Assembly: GCA_026421185.1 (NCBI GenBank)
Contig: JAPKCH010000006.1
Span: 1 to 64,000 of the forward strand
Source: Dehalococcoidia bacterium
GTDB taxonomy: Bacteria; Chloroflexota; Dehalococcoidia; Lucifugimonadales; Lucifugimonadaceae
Length of the DNA: 64,000 nucleotides
Direction of reading: 5' to 3'
In this document: piece by piece, positions 12,149-51,750 of the stretch
Layout: every line of letters starts with the position of its first letter
Position numbering within the stretch: position 1 is the first letter of the stretch
The notes under the pieces: model-generated
Databases searched by the model: none
What the model was told of the DNA's origin: nothing
What the model saw: the letters and a program-made list of their open reading frames with translations, nothing else
Made by a program: the position numbers and the translations under genes

Positions 12149-12736
12149 ATGTCTGTTTGGAACTTTAGACGTGCGAGATATGGAATTTTTATCGCTATGT
12201 CAGGGCTGCTCGCAGTTGTCGTTTTGGTCGCCTGTGGTAACAGTGCTGCGGATAAAACTGCAAGCTTCGTTAAGATCAGAACCGCACCTGCCGATTACGC
12301 GATAGAGGATCTCAAAATTTTTGGATTGAAAGCTAACAAGCAGTACGACGTTGATGGGCTTCCCGATGGGTTGGACGCTTGGAGAGGTTTTTGGGGGTTA
12401 GATCCGTATGAACGGCACGACTACGAGATTCGTTTCTACGCTTCTCACGCGCTTGCAGTTTCAAGCGGCCAGCAGTTAGCGATTGATGCAACTGGTGCAG
12501 AGTTTACGGCTAAGCGTGATGAGCAAGTTTGGACCGAGGGCGTTAAAGATCGCTGGCAGGCTAGGGGGGTGACTGACGTTTCGAGTGGTGGTTCACGACA
12601 GGCACCAGGGCCGACTTATCAGGATTGGGCTATCGTCGGAAATATGGTGATTCTGTGTGATGGTCTAGATTCTGAGCAAGCGATCATTAGGTGTGCCTCG
12701 CTGATCGCTAATTTCCTGCCAGATGAGGGTGCCTAG
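12149..12736 (+). CDS. putative lipoprotein, hypothetical
   Basis: N-terminal signal with lipobox-like LVACGN; no family recognised. Confidence 0.6.
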   Translation: MSVWNFRRARYGIFIAMSGLLAVVVLVACGNSAADKTASFVKIRTAPADYAIEDLKIFGLKANKQYDVDGLPDGLDAWRGFWGLDPYERHDYEIRFYASHALAVSSGQQLAIDATGAEFTAKRDEQVWTEGVKDRWQARGVTDVSSGGSRQAPGPTYQDWAIVGNMVILCDGLDSEQAIIRCASLIANFLPDEGA

Positions 12737-13254
12737 TCGATATTGGGGTCATTGGTTAGTTCGCTAGATTGCTTTCCGCGTCGTTTGATCTCTGCCCATA
12801 ATTGGCCATCTCGGCGTGCTGCTATCACGGTTGTCACTGCCACGATCACTACTAGTACTGCCGAAGTTACGCAGTATTGGCAGACTGCTTTGATCACAAA
12901 GAATTCGATAGCACTGAGGTATATCGAAGCTAAAACTCCGACGCCCGCGACTCCTGTGACTATTCGTCGAGCGCGCATATCGTCGATCGGTGCTTGAGCG
13001 GCATGAAGTGCGCCGAGCATGATGATCGAATAGGTCGCCATGCCGAAAACAGAGACTGGGATTCCAAAAAACTTCGACCACTTACTGCCGAGTACGGTGT
13101 TGCAACCACTGACGCTACAGCCGACTTCTGTGTGGGCCAGAGCGTTCGCAGTTAGGTAAGTGGTGACAGCGAGTCCGACGAGTGCGATCAGAGCGATCAA
13201 AAGCCAAAGCTTCGAAGGTTGATCAGAATTTTCCATCGTCTCACCGTCTGGCAT
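12733..13254 (-). CDS. vitamin K epoxide reductase (VKOR) family protein
   Basis: four TM segments, paired Cys GCSVSGC and CQYC; start overlaps DsbA-like stop (TAATG). Confidence 0.88.
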   Translation of the reverse strand: MPDGETMENSDQPSKLWLLIALIALVGLAVTTYLTANALAHTEVGCSVSGCNTVLGSKWSKFFGIPVSVFGMATYSIIMLGALHAAQAPIDDMRARRIVTGVAGVGVLASIYLSAIEFFVIKAVCQYCVTSAVLVVIVAVTTVIAARRDGQLWAEIKRRGKQSSELTNDPNID

Positions 13255-13964
13255 TAACCGTCTACTTCGTTCAGCGCCTCTTCGAGTCGTACTCGGTAGT
13301 AACCGTATTCTTTGAGCCCGCCGATGTTCACGCCGTTCAAGAACAAGGTTGGTGTTGAGTTCACTCCGAATTCGATCGCTGCTTCACGGTCGCTAGTTAT
13401 CTTTGATAGGTATTTACCAGATTCCATACATTCGTCGAATTGGCTTAGGAATAGCCCTGTCATTTCTGCAAATATCCGAAGGTTAACATCTGAATATGTG
13501 CCTTGGTTTTCACCGTTCCAGTTTACGAATATTGTTTCTTGATATTCCTGGAATCGATTTTGCTCTGCGGCACACTCTGATGCTTCAGCTGCTCGCCACG
13601 ACTCATCTCCGATGAACGGGAAGTGCCTGAAAAGAATATTTACGCGTCCAGTGTCTACATACTCGCGAATGATCTGTTGCCCTGGCCCGAGGGCAAAATT
13701 TGCGCAGACAGGTCACTGAAAGTCCCCGAATTCAACAAGGGTGATAGGAGCGTTGGGATCACCGATAAGCGATCCGCCGGTTACAAGGGCCGACTTTTCT
13801 TCCGTAACTGCCGATTCTGGTGAGTTAAGGAAGATGACTACGATGACTGCTATTGCCGCAAATACGACAATGCCTCCACCCCAGAAAGACCAATTTATTT
13901 TTCCGGATTTCTTAGGATCTCTCGATTTGTTTTTGCGTCGATCTTGTCTTGAAATCAATTGCAT
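13254..13964 (-). CDS. membrane-anchored DsbA/thioredoxin-like selenoprotein; in-frame UGA (Sec) at 13713-13715
   Basis: ORFs 13713..13964 and 13254..13463 are in the same frame; readthrough gives ...NAPITLVEFGDFQ-U-PVCANFALGPGQQIIREYVDTGRVNILFRHFPF...FGVNSTPTLFLNG; UGA is at the first Cys of the CxxC. Confidence 0.87.
13677..13696 (-). promoter_or_regulatory. candidate bacterial SECIS hairpin of DsbA-like selenoprotein
   Basis: minus-strand TTGCCCT-CGGGCC-AGGGCAA: 7-bp stem, GGG in loop, loop about 25 nt after UGA. Confidence 0.7.
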
Positions 13965-14015: not shown

Positions 14016-14681
14016 CTAAGTTTTGCGGCCTGTGAAGATTAAGTGCCGGATTCCACCTTTTCCTTTGTGTGCCTGAATTTCGTGTTTCTGAGCACGGAAA
14101 CCGTTTCGTTTCATTCTGGATACGAACCTCGGTTCGTCATCTGCTGACCATATTGCGACTCTGCCGCCATTCTTGAGAGCGCTTCGTATCGCTCCTAGTC
14201 CGTGGTCGGTATAGAGCCATGCGTTGCGTTCGCTGACGAGTGGAGATGGTCCGTTGTCGATATCGAGCATGATCGAGTCGTATTCGTTACGAGCATTTTT
14301 AATTACTTTTGAAACGTCGTTTTGAACGAGTTCGGTTCGCTTGTCGTCGAGAGGATGTTCAGCGAACTGAGCAAGTGGACCCTTGTTCCATTCGATTACT
14401 TCTGGAACAAGTTCGACCTGTACAGCTTTGCCGTCTTTTGGGATTAGGTCGAGTGCTGCTCGCAGCGTGTAGCCAAGTCCTAATCCGCCGATCATGACTT
14501 TCGCACCGGGGCGGAGTTTGTTGCAAACAAGACGTGCGAGTTCTATTTCAGAGAAGTGCATGCGGGTCGACATCAGTGGGAGGTCGTCTGCCCTGATGAT
14601 GTATTCGCCGTCGTGTTCGACGAGTTCTAGACGTGTGCCGTCGGGCGATAATGCTTCGCCAACTGTGATCCAAGGTTTCAT
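14016..14681 (-). CDS. spermidine synthase-like / class I SAM-dependent methyltransferase fold protein
   Basis: VMIGGLGLGYTLRAALDLIPKDGKAVQVELVPEVIEWNK and DSIMLDIDNGP motifs. Confidence 0.75.
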   Translation of the reverse strand: MKPWITVGEALSPDGTRLELVEHDGEYIIRADDLPLMSTRMHFSEIELARLVCNKLRPGAKVMIGGLGLGYTLRAALDLIPKDGKAVQVELVPEVIEWNKGPLAQFAEHPLDDKRTELVQNDVSKVIKNARNEYDSIMLDIDNGPSPLVSERNAWLYTDHGLGAIRSALKNGGRVAIWSADDEPRFVSRMKRNGFRAQKHEIQAHKGKGGIRHLIFTGRKT

Positions 14682-15693: not shown

Positions 15694-17262
15694 CTACTCT
15701 GGGTACACGGGCTCTTCGAATGGGTACAGAGGGACTCGACGGCTGTTGAATTCGAATGTGTCGAGATCGGCTGATGTTACGCCGGGGCTGTTCACGATGA
15801 TGATTTCGGCTGCGATTGGCTGATACGCAGGCCGTGGTGAACTAACGCCCTTGGCGACTATGATTCGGTAGTCCTCAGGGTTGATTCCCATTGAATACAT
15901 CTGAGCTCGTGCAGTGTTTCCGCTACGCCTTGATGTCAGTAGTATCGTCATTCCGTCGACAGTATTAAACAGCACACGCTTGCCATCGTCGTAGAAGCGA
16001 CCGCCGCCGTGTGTGGGGCGAGTTTCCTCGTACGGTCCATCATCGATGATGCCGACAGTTCCGACGACACGAATAGGTTCGCCGTGCATGTCATCGGTTT
16101 TGCCGCCGACCTTAAGAGATATTTCGGCACCCGTTCCCGCAGCCACACATGCTTCGACTGATTCAGGATCATAAAGGCTTTGTAGGTAACCCTCGATATT
16201 CATTTCCCGAGCGACTTTGAGGATGTGGGTGGAGTCGGCAGACGATCCGCCGCCGATGTTGTCGCCAACGTCCATGAGGACGATAGGCCCGAGGTGAGAG
16301 TGTTCAGATGGTTCGGACTCGGTAAGTGCGGAACCGTCGTCTGGCATAAAGTTCTCGATGCCATCGGGTTTAGGTCCGGCGTATAGTTCGTTCGCTTCCG
16401 TTAGTGCGTCTTCGATGGAGTGGACGGATCTGTTGAGATCGATTCGCTTGGTCCATGCGCTTGCTGCGAGATCTTTGGAAACTTTTTCAGCGAGATCGGC
16501 GTCGTCGTCAGTGATTGTGATCCACGACATGCCCATCTCTTCAACGTCGGCGTATGGGTAGCCTTCGGCGATAGAAGTGTCGAGAACGTTGTCGATTTCA
16601 TTGGCAGCCACACATTCATTGACAAGGCCAAACATCGGCTCCTGCCCGGTGAACTGCTTAACGATATTTACGAGCATCGGAGGCATTTCGATGAACTGTA
16701 CTGGGTTCACTTCGCCCTTTGCGGCACGGTATATCAGCTCTGCGGTTTTGCGTCCGCGGAGCTTGGTGTCGAGATGTGGGCAGGTTCGCCAGACGATGCA
16801 GACGTCGGTGTTAGCGACGGTGGCTTTCGAGATATTGGCGTGCATGTCGAGAGTTATTCCGACTGGCACGTCGGGACCGACGATTTCTCTTATGGCCCTA
16901 GTGAACTCACCGTCCATATCAGGGAATTCTTCTGATACGGCCGCCCCGTGATTCGCTAGGAGAACGCCGTCCCACGGTCCTTGATCTCGCAGCATGCCAA
17001 GCATTTCGCTTGAGATTCGGTCGTAGGCATCTTTGGTGATGGTTCCGATTGGGCCAGTCCGAGCGTGCATTAGAAGAACGGCTTCGAAATTTAGTTCGTT
17101 GGCACCTTGGAGGTAGCCAGCGATGGTGTGGTCTGAGGTGGCGTAGTTATCGGCGATTTCGTCACCGCGAAGTAGTCGGCTTTTTTCGAACTCTTCGTAC
17201 GTCGCAGGCACGATAGAAAACGTATTTGTTTCGTGCGAAATGCCGAGTATTGCGAATTTCAT
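15694..17262 (-). CDS. M81 family metallopeptidase (MlrC-like), copy 1
   Basis: MKFAILGISHETNTFS start; GITLDMHANIS, DVGDNIGGGSSADST, C-terminal ARAQMYSMGINPEDYRIIVAKGVSSPRPAY. Confidence 0.92.
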   Translation of the reverse strand: MKFAILGISHETNTFSIVPATYEEFEKSRLLRGDEIADNYATSDHTIAGYLQGANELNFEAVLLMHARTGPIGTITKDAYDRISSEMLGMLRDQGPWDGVLLANHGAAVSEEFPDMDGEFTRAIREIVGPDVPVGITLDMHANISKATVANTDVCIVWRTCPHLDTKLRGRKTAELIYRAAKGEVNPVQFIEMPPMLVNIVKQFTGQEPMFGLVNECVAANEIDNVLDTSIAEGYPYADVEEMGMSWITITDDDADLAEKVSKDLAASAWTKRIDLNRSVHSIEDALTEANELYAGPKPDGIENFMPDDGSALTESEPSEHSHLGPIVLMDVGDNIGGGSSADSTHILKVAREMNIEGYLQSLYDPESVEACVAAGTGAEISLKVGGKTDDMHGEPIRVVGTVGIIDDGPYEETRPTHGGGRFYDDGKRVLFNTVDGMTILLTSRRSGNTARAQMYSMGINPEDYRIIVAKGVSSPRPAYQPIAAEIIIVNSPGVTSADLDTFEFNSRRVPLYPFEEPVYPE

Positions 17263-17354
17263 GGAGTAAGTTCGGGCGTCGTCGGACGACTTGGTCGTTG
17301 TTTCGTTAGTCGCGCTCGTCATCGTATGACTCGACTCTGCGCCGCAGTTTAACC

Positions 17355-17395
17355 AACCCCACTAGCCCTTTCCTTCCGGAAGTGCTAGTGGGGTT
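17355..17395 (-). repeat. hairpin between the two M81 genes
   Basis: perfect 11-bp inverted repeat AACCCCACTAG / CTAGTGGGGTT. Confidence 0.65.
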
Positions 17396-17400
17396 GAAGC

Positions 17401-18969
17401 CTACGCTGGGTATACGGGTTCTTCGAATGGGTAGAGGGGGACTCGGCGACTCTTGAATTCGAAAGTATCGAGGTCGGCTGAAGTTACGCCGGGACTGTTT
17501 ACGATAATAATTTCGGCAGCAATCGGCTGGTATGCCGGTCGTGGCGAACTCACACCCTTGGCGACAACTATTCGGTAGTCCTCAGGGTTGATTCCCATCG
17601 AGTACATCTGCGCCCGGGCTGTGTTTCCGCTTCGCGCCGAAGTTAAGAGAATTGTCATTCCGTCTACGGTGTTGAAGAGCACACGCTTGCCATCGTCATA
17701 GAAACGGTATCCGCCATGAGTTGGTCGGGTCTCTTCGTAAGGGCCATCATCGATGACTCCCACAGTTCCAACGATGTGCACCGGTTCGCCGTGCATATCG
17801 TCGGTCTTCCCACCAACATCTAGCGCAAGTTCGGCGCCAGTTCCTGCGGTTACACACGCTTCGACAGCTTCAGGATCGTAGAGGCTCTGTAGATATCCGG
17901 TTACGCCCATCTCTTGAGCGACCTTGATGATGTGAGTGGAGTCTGCTGATGATCCGCCACCGATGTTGTCTCCAACGTCCATGAGAACGATAGGACCAAG
18001 GTGAGAGTGTTCAGTCTTTTCGGCTTCTGCGAGTGCTGATCCGTCGGTTGGCATGAAGTTCTCAATGCCTTCAGGCTTAGGTCCAACGTATCGTTCTTCA
18101 GCCTGCTTCAATGCGTCTTCGATCGAAGCGACAGGCTTGTTCAGATCGATTCGCTTGGTCCACGCTGCGGTAGCAAGATCTTTGGAAACTTTTTCTGCGA
18201 GCTCGGTGTCTCCATCGGTGATTGTGATCCACGACATGCCCATTTCGTTGACATCGGCGTATGGGTAGCCTTCAGCGATAGAGGTGTCGAGAACATTCTC
18301 GATTTCGTTGGCAGCGACACATTCGTCGACGAGGCTTAGCATTGGTTCTTGGCCAGTGAACTGTTTCACGATGTTTACGAGCATTGGAGGCATTTCGATG
18401 AACTGGACTGGCTTGATTTCTCCTAGAACCGTTCGGTAAATGAGTTCAGCAGTTTTGCGTCCGCGTAGCTTGGTGTCTAGGTGCGGGCATGTTCGCCACA
18501 CAATACAAACGTCGGTATTGGCGACGGTGTCTTTAGAAATGTTGGCGTGCATGTCGAGCGTTATACCGACTGGAACGTCGGGTCCGACGATTTCGCGTAC
18601 GACACGAGTAAATTCGGCGTCCATGTCAGGGAATTCTTCCGACACAGCTGCACCGTGATTGCTAATTAGAACGCCGTCCCAGGGTCCCTGATCACGAAGC
18701 ATCTGGTGCATTTCGCCCGAAATACGATCGTAAGCATCTTTGGTGATCGTACCGATCGGGCCTGTGTTTGCGTACATCAATGGCACGGCCTCGAATCCGA
18801 GTTCTTCGGCCCCCTGAAGGTATCCGGAGATCGTGTACTGAGATTCGGCGTAGAGATCGACGATCTCTTGTCCATGGGCGATAGTCGCCTTCTCGAATTC
18901 TTCATAGGTTGCTGGAACCCGTGAAAATGTGTTTGTCTCGTGTGAAATGCCGAGAATGGCGAATCTCAT
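17401..18969 (-). CDS. M81 family metallopeptidase (MlrC-like), copy 2
   Basis: MRFAILGISHETNTFS start; near-identical to copy 1 over long stretches. Confidence 0.92.
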   Translation of the reverse strand: MRFAILGISHETNTFSRVPATYEEFEKATIAHGQEIVDLYAESQYTISGYLQGAEELGFEAVPLMYANTGPIGTITKDAYDRISGEMHQMLRDQGPWDGVLISNHGAAVSEEFPDMDAEFTRVVREIVGPDVPVGITLDMHANISKDTVANTDVCIVWRTCPHLDTKLRGRKTAELIYRTVLGEIKPVQFIEMPPMLVNIVKQFTGQEPMLSLVDECVAANEIENVLDTSIAEGYPYADVNEMGMSWITITDGDTELAEKVSKDLATAAWTKRIDLNKPVASIEDALKQAEERYVGPKPEGIENFMPTDGSALAEAEKTEHSHLGPIVLMDVGDNIGGGSSADSTHIIKVAQEMGVTGYLQSLYDPEAVEACVTAGTGAELALDVGGKTDDMHGEPVHIVGTVGVIDDGPYEETRPTHGGYRFYDDGKRVLFNTVDGMTILLTSARSGNTARAQMYSMGINPEDYRIVVAKGVSSPRPAYQPIAAEIIIVNSPGVTSADLDTFEFKSRRVPLYPFEEPVYPA

Positions 18970-19173
18970 AATGTTCTCTCTACTAGATCGTGGTTGATTC
19001 GTTATCTTCAAACCGTGAGTGTCGTGACAGTTAGCTATATGCCGGTCGAGATAATACCTTGACCCACGCGGTTTTGAACCCTGCTACGAGGGCAGTTCTC
19101 ATCGAAGGAATGTTGGACGCAGACGATGCCGCCTATTCCAAAATAACCGATACTGATCTTTCCGGGGTGCGGA

Positions 19174-51279: not shown

Positions 51280-51750
51280 ATGGGCCAGCTTCTAGTAGAC
51301 GATAAATTTCCGGATATCGAATTGTCGATTGCCGGAGGTGGCACTATGTCGCTTCCAGGCGATGTGGCTGGTAGCTGGACCTACGTATTGCTCTATCGCG
51401 GAGGCTGGTGACCGTACTGCACTCGGCAGTTAGCCGATGTAGAAGCTTCGATTACTGAACTGAACGAACTCGGTATCAAGATCATTGCCGGAAATACGGA
51501 CGGCGATTCTGATACAGATCAAACACATTCGGATCACGATCTTTCGTTCCCAATTGCGCACAGTGTGCCGGTTGAAGTCGGCGAGAAGATTGGCGCTTGG
51601 ATTGGCGAGCGACAGGGTGAGCCGATGATTCAGCCGTGCGAATTTGTACTGCGACCCGACGGTACTGTGGCTGCCTCGTTGTATGCAACCACGCAGCTAG
51701 GCCGAATGAATCCGTCCGAGGTTGTTCGATTCGTGAAGGCGCGAATTTAA
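51280..51750 (+). CDS. AhpC/TSA peroxiredoxin-like selenoprotein; in-frame UGA (Sec) at 51409-51411
   Basis: ATG at 51280 in frame with ORF 51565..51750; product MGQLLVDDKFPDIELSIAGGGTMSLPGDVAGSWTYVLLYRGGW-U-PYCTRQLADVEASITELNELGIKIIAGNTDG... Confidence 0.88.
51417..51442 (+). promoter_or_regulatory. candidate bacterial SECIS hairpin of peroxiredoxin-like selenoprotein
   Basis: CTGCA-C-TCGGC-AGTTA-GCCGA-TGTAG: two 5-bp stems with one bulge, G/U in apical loop about 18 nt after UGA. Confidence 0.65.

Follow-up and report, generated by a model that had tools for sequence, protein, structure and literature searches.

A probable membrane-anchored DsbA-like selenoprotein encoded across an in-frame UGA beside a VKOR-family gene in Dehalococcoidia

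The window, i.e. the whole stretch of DNA analysed, comprises 64,000 nucleotides of a Dehalococcoidia bacterium. On its minus strand, positions 13254-13964 form a single frame of 236 codons, whose sole in-frame interruption is a TGA at 13713-13715. According to genetic code table 11, the ORF (13713-13964) stops at ...VEFGDFQ-TGA. Past the TGA, the frame stays open up to a TAA (13254-13256), and translation with TGA read as U gives 236 residues with U at position 84. This TAA shares its last A with the start codon of a VKOR-family gene. A spermidine-synthase-like protein (14016-14681, minus strand) is encoded directly upstream of the frame in 14 of 14 loci of the genus, with 72-90% identity. 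Two adjoining, closely similar ORFs of about 540 aa are found at 15694-19011 on the same strand, an apparent tandem duplication. The features of the locus are listed in Table 1.

Table 1. Coordinates of the features at the locus, numbered from the first position of the window.
Feature	Position	Strand	Basis or remark
Full CDS of the predicted membrane-anchored DsbA-like selenoprotein, UGA read as Sec	13254..13964	-	236 aa + TAA
In-frame UGA, putative Sec84, position 1 of the redox motif U-P-V-C	13713..13715	-	
Cys87, motif position 2, putative resolving residue	13704..13706	-	invariant in protein alignment
Putative SECIS hairpin UUGCCCU-CGGGCC-AGGGCAA	13677..13696	-	published-model fit, covariation, silent-site conservation
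Hairpin, 5' arm	13690..13696	-	
Hairpin, loop CGGGCC	13684..13689	-	
Hairpin, 3' arm	13677..13683	-	
Thioredoxin_4/DsbA domain, residues 64-220	13305..13775	-	profile matches, predicted structure
Predicted N-terminal TM anchor, residues 28-46	13827..13883	-	hydropathy; predicted helix 30-46, low confidence
Presumed cis-Pro, Pro205 in the conserved TP motif	13350..13352	-	T204 and P205 invariant
VKOR-family gene, presumed redox partner	12733..13254	-	start overlaps selenoprotein stop (TAATG)

The UGA coincides with the first Cys of the CxxC motif in the Thioredoxin_4/DsbA domain. When C was placed at U84, the profile PF13462 (Thioredoxin_4) matched across the UGA (2.9e-30; 106.1 bits, cut-off 23.2), and PF01323 (DSBA) matched with 5.2e-10 (39.9 bits, cut-off 25.6); hence, the continuation past the UGA is not a matter of chance. 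The initial annotation, made from the sequence letters, had placed the UGA at the first catalytic Cys of a DsbA-like CxxC, with the frame continuing to 13254 and an N-terminal transmembrane anchor. Translation and domain matches confirmed the position and the frame, and the anchor is borne out by a hydrophobic segment (mean hydropathy 2.7) behind a basic N-terminus with 9 K/R vs 2 D/E in residues 1-28. We infer a membrane topology in which the active site lies outside the membrane. AlphaFold2 modelled the DsbA domain with confidence (pLDDT mostly >90). In structural comparison, the predicted fold came closest to Corynebacterium DsbA/TsdA, BdbD and Wolbachia DsbA1; by prediction, the domain therefore has a DsbA-like fold. 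The Cys-containing DsbA/BdbD proteins (PDB 3eu3, 4pwp, 3f4r) share this fold and the motif position, but carry Cys at the first position of the motif, where the present protein would have selenocysteine (Sec). From family knowledge, Pro205 presumably adopts the cis form.

Going by the ORF list, two separate proteins would be mechanically possible, namely a short transmembrane peptide terminated by the UGA and a thioredoxin-like remnant translated from an internal start. However, the domain starts ahead of the UGA, the 20 codons that lead up to it are strongly conserved (dN/dS 0.03) and the Cys homologues are single proteins, which makes two products extremely improbable.

Besides our own genome, 18 genomes of the genus (19 in all) were searched for orthologues; 13 had one, all with TGA at this codon, and in 5 none was found. 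The UGA is thus kept in 14 of 14 genus orthologues, own locus counted. The genus orthologues are 60-71% identical to the query. Outside the genus, the site is TGA in additional genera and families within the class, and TGC or TGT in others; homologues with Cys aligned at the UGA, which the initial annotation had expected of a Sec codon, were found in this way. The dN/dS (Nei-Gojobori, genus sequences) was about 0.09 after the UGA vs 0.18 before, ratios which are rough with silent sites close to saturation. The value after the UGA indicates that the downstream part is a selected protein. The table-11 reading, which yields a truncated ORF only, would agree with a sequencing error or with a prematurely terminated pseudogene. 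Sequencing error is excluded by the same UGA in 14 separate genus assemblies; the UGA recurs at this codon in other families, and the codons past it are under strong purifying selection. Either explanation has a practically negligible probability.

A hairpin with a G-rich loop about 25 nt past the UGA had also been reported in the initial annotation. The hairpin is present, and the distance is slightly shorter, with 16 nt from the UGA to the stem and 23 nt to the loop. The model for bacterial SECIS elements in the available part of PMC13188914 allows a loop of 3-9 nt, a stem of 4-16 bp, G in loop position 1 or 2 and a distance of 16-37 nt from the UGA. With a loop of 6 nt, a stem of 7 bp, G at loop position 2 and 23 nt, the hairpin is within this model as given there, and it covaries. 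Among 15 distinct sequences, 99% of the cells were paired and three pairs showed compensatory two-sided changes, as compared to at most one in slid controls. In a sequence from another genus (L046), GCC/GGC is replaced by UUC/GAA with pairing and loop preserved. Silent divergence was 0.02 in the SECIS codons vs 0.76 in the codons beyond the hairpin. For the 48-nt stretch of the own genome, the minimum-energy fold is a competing structure and shuffled sequences fold equally well (z -0.5). Since the folding energy of the single sequence is not unusual, the case for a SECIS element rests on conservation and covariation. An Rfam scan of the 64-kb window gave no match at gathering thresholds.

The machinery for Sec insertion is present in the genome: selA (518 bits), selB (313 bits) and selD (370 bits) all score over their curated cut-offs, and a tRNA-Sec was found at a contig end. 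This truncated selC was located by aligning the tRNA-SeC(tca) of relatives; contig C35 (3356 bp) ends within the gene, so that its 5' part, with the anticodon (UCA), is retained. A complete tRNA-SeC(tca) was found in 10 of 10 relatives checked. A pattern search for tRNA-Sec with TTCAAA gave no match; the lineage carries TTCAAC. The best-scoring match of the own genome to the tRNA-Sec family (L017; 53 bits, over the Rfam cut-off) was rejected, as ARAGORN identified it as tRNA-Ser(GCU). The own selD (L012, G000:C83, at a contig end) has an in-frame UGA (CAGUAGK) and SelD itself is therefore probably a selenoprotein in this genome. At the level of sequence, the gene, its UGA, the SECIS element and the Sec machinery are established, and Sec would be incorporated at residue 84.

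The UGA could alternatively encode another residue, either by a reassigned code (Trp) or by read-through with a near-cognate tRNA, and UGA does rarely terminate in the window: the 31 stop-to-stop frames of ≥300 codons end with TAG (20), TAA (9) and TGA (2). However, both UGA stops end ordinary genes and have more stops close behind, hence UGA is not simply reassigned. Furthermore, relatives have Cys at the site, not Trp, the hairpin is conserved and the Sec machinery is complete. Decoding as a residue other than Sec is very unlikely. Elsewhere in the window, an AhpC/TSA-like frame at 51280-51750 on the plus strand, with TGA at 51409 (RGGW-U-PYC), encodes a second probable selenoprotein. PF00578 matches it across the UGA (2.1e-19), and it resembles known Prx-like UxxC selenoproteins.

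Of the 60 proteins compared in a tree, 30 have Sec. The best tree has eight changes of state between Sec and Cys, of which well-supported branches force at least three. The nearest Cys homologues (L039 and L040; G033 and G023) are from genomes without selA over the cut-off. L039 and L040 belong to a sister genus and have lost the hairpin while LGPG is retained at the protein level, a pattern consistent with a change from Sec to Cys, the direction of which is left unfixed by the tree. Class-wide, selA was present in 27 of 28 Sec-bearing vs 17 of 24 Cys-bearing genomes (p 0.018, relatedness ignored), which is a modest link between Sec and selA. The lone Sec-bearing genome without selA (G327) is 72% complete. 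A supposed Sec row with one TGA (G056) was rejected, since this TGA is an upstream stop and the motif is CPFC. Five sequences (L096-L100, from G327, G207 and G301) form a separate Sec clade with another conserved hairpin-like stretch 3' of the UGA (CGTTTC-CGTGAT-GAAACG); in both G207 and G301, two copies with Sec occur alongside one or more with Cys.

All Sec rows have an in-frame TGA at motif position 1. The sole extra internal TGA is found at motif position 2 in one species (L030; G003:C46), where both motif positions are TGA (UPVU). In the available part of PMC13188914, UxxU is reported for Prx-like, metal-binding and FmdB proteins, and UxxC only for the DsbA-like form 1 and DsbG-like proteins. 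The VKOR gene downstream is frameshifted or partly deleted in that assembly, and the UPVU may hence stem from an assembly fault or gene decay.

The VKOR gene lies directly 3' of the selenoprotein gene in 14 of 14 genus loci (with the frameshift in G003) and also adjoins many other members of the family across the class. Oxidative folding pairs of DsbA and VKOR are known in bacteria. There, the VKOR gene is likewise located beside a DsbA-like gene; the present locus differs in that the DsbA-like partner would bear Sec. Overlap and conserved adjacency suggest that selenoprotein and VKOR form an extracytoplasmic oxidative-folding pair, the assignment of VKOR as the partner being based on gene order and family knowledge. 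Going by the sequence evidence, we assign a probability of about 0.9 to a real selenoprotein, i.e. an anchored thiol-disulfide oxidoreductase of the DsbA/Thioredoxin_4 type with Sec inserted at the UGA by SelB, tRNA-Sec and the hairpin, and VKOR as the likely re-oxidant. SelB and Sec-tRNA(UCA) would decode the UGA, aided by the hairpin 16 nt 3' of it, and the U-P-V-C active site of the product would lie outside the membrane. Sec84 would most likely be the substrate-facing residue and form a mixed (seleno)disulfide with substrate proteins, which Cys87 would resolve. The adjacent VKOR would re-oxidise the U-C pair and thereby drive extracytoplasmic oxidative folding.

The direction of the reaction, oxidase vs reductase or isomerase, is less certain. 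UxxC selenoproteins are often reductive catalysts, and the protein could be a DsbG/DsbC-like reductase or isomerase, with VKOR serving another partner. In this direction points the family NF041057 (Rcas_1661 thioredoxin-like (seleno)lipoprotein), the members of which are related to the present protein and are classed as DsbG-like selenoproteins in the available part of PMC13188914. However, the adjacent VKOR is conserved and the best structural matches include the oxidases BdbD and DsbA. A reductase or isomerase is thus rather unlikely and the oxidase is preferred. Among the curated families, NF041057 came closest. With its thioredoxin-like UxxC domain, it matches residues 58-224 (3.2e-35), and the present protein is, judging by this match, clearly related. 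The score is 121.9 bits at a family cut-off of 190 bits, and 0 of 40 relatives were over the cut-off. NF041057 is a family of lipoproteins, whereas the present protein has a transmembrane anchor and is without lipobox, as residues 1-83 contain no Cys.

DsbA-like and DsbG-like UxxC selenoproteins have been on record since 2005, from the Sargasso Sea, according to the available part of PMC1088965, and the current catalogue, in the part available, lists a 'DsbA-like protein form 1' (PF01323) and DsbG-like selenoproteins (PMC13188914). As far as these texts were available, their DsbA-like selenoproteins share the DsbA-like domain (PF01323), the UxxC motif and a downstream SECIS element with the present protein, and a membrane anchor or a VKOR neighbour is not mentioned in these parts. 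Compared by description only, those of PMC1088965 are assigned to COG2761 in the part available, whereas the present protein matches Thioredoxin_4 (PF13462) more strongly. A full-text literature search, with subscription literature mostly outside its reach, gave no paper linking selenocysteine, VKOR and DsbA and none on this DsbA-like selenoprotein in SAR202, the group to which the genus may belong; novelty is unproven.

Hence, the selenoprotein is a well-supported fresh case of a bacterial selenoprotein type already known. Three features are less usual: Sec recurs in the family across the class, the gene is paired with VKOR, and one species has UxxU. That a Sec-DsbA/VKOR folding pathway recurs across Dehalococcoidia, a class of the Chloroflexota, with repeated exchange of Cys and Sec and a step to UxxU in G003, is a tentative proposal to which we give slightly less than even odds. 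Locally, Sec occurs together with selA, and Cys where selA is missing, in the closest sister genus; this is a clean example of Sec/Cys exchange tracking the Sec machinery. What appears to be a gene broken by a stop very probably is, by its sequence, a whole membrane-anchored disulfide-forming enzyme with selenium at its active site. Reading with the standard code splits this gene, and an extracytoplasmic disulfide enzyme of an uncultured lineage is lost from view. Should selenoprotein and VKOR act together as proposed, they would provide a natural test of what Sec contributes at the position that faces the substrate in an oxidative-folding catalyst.
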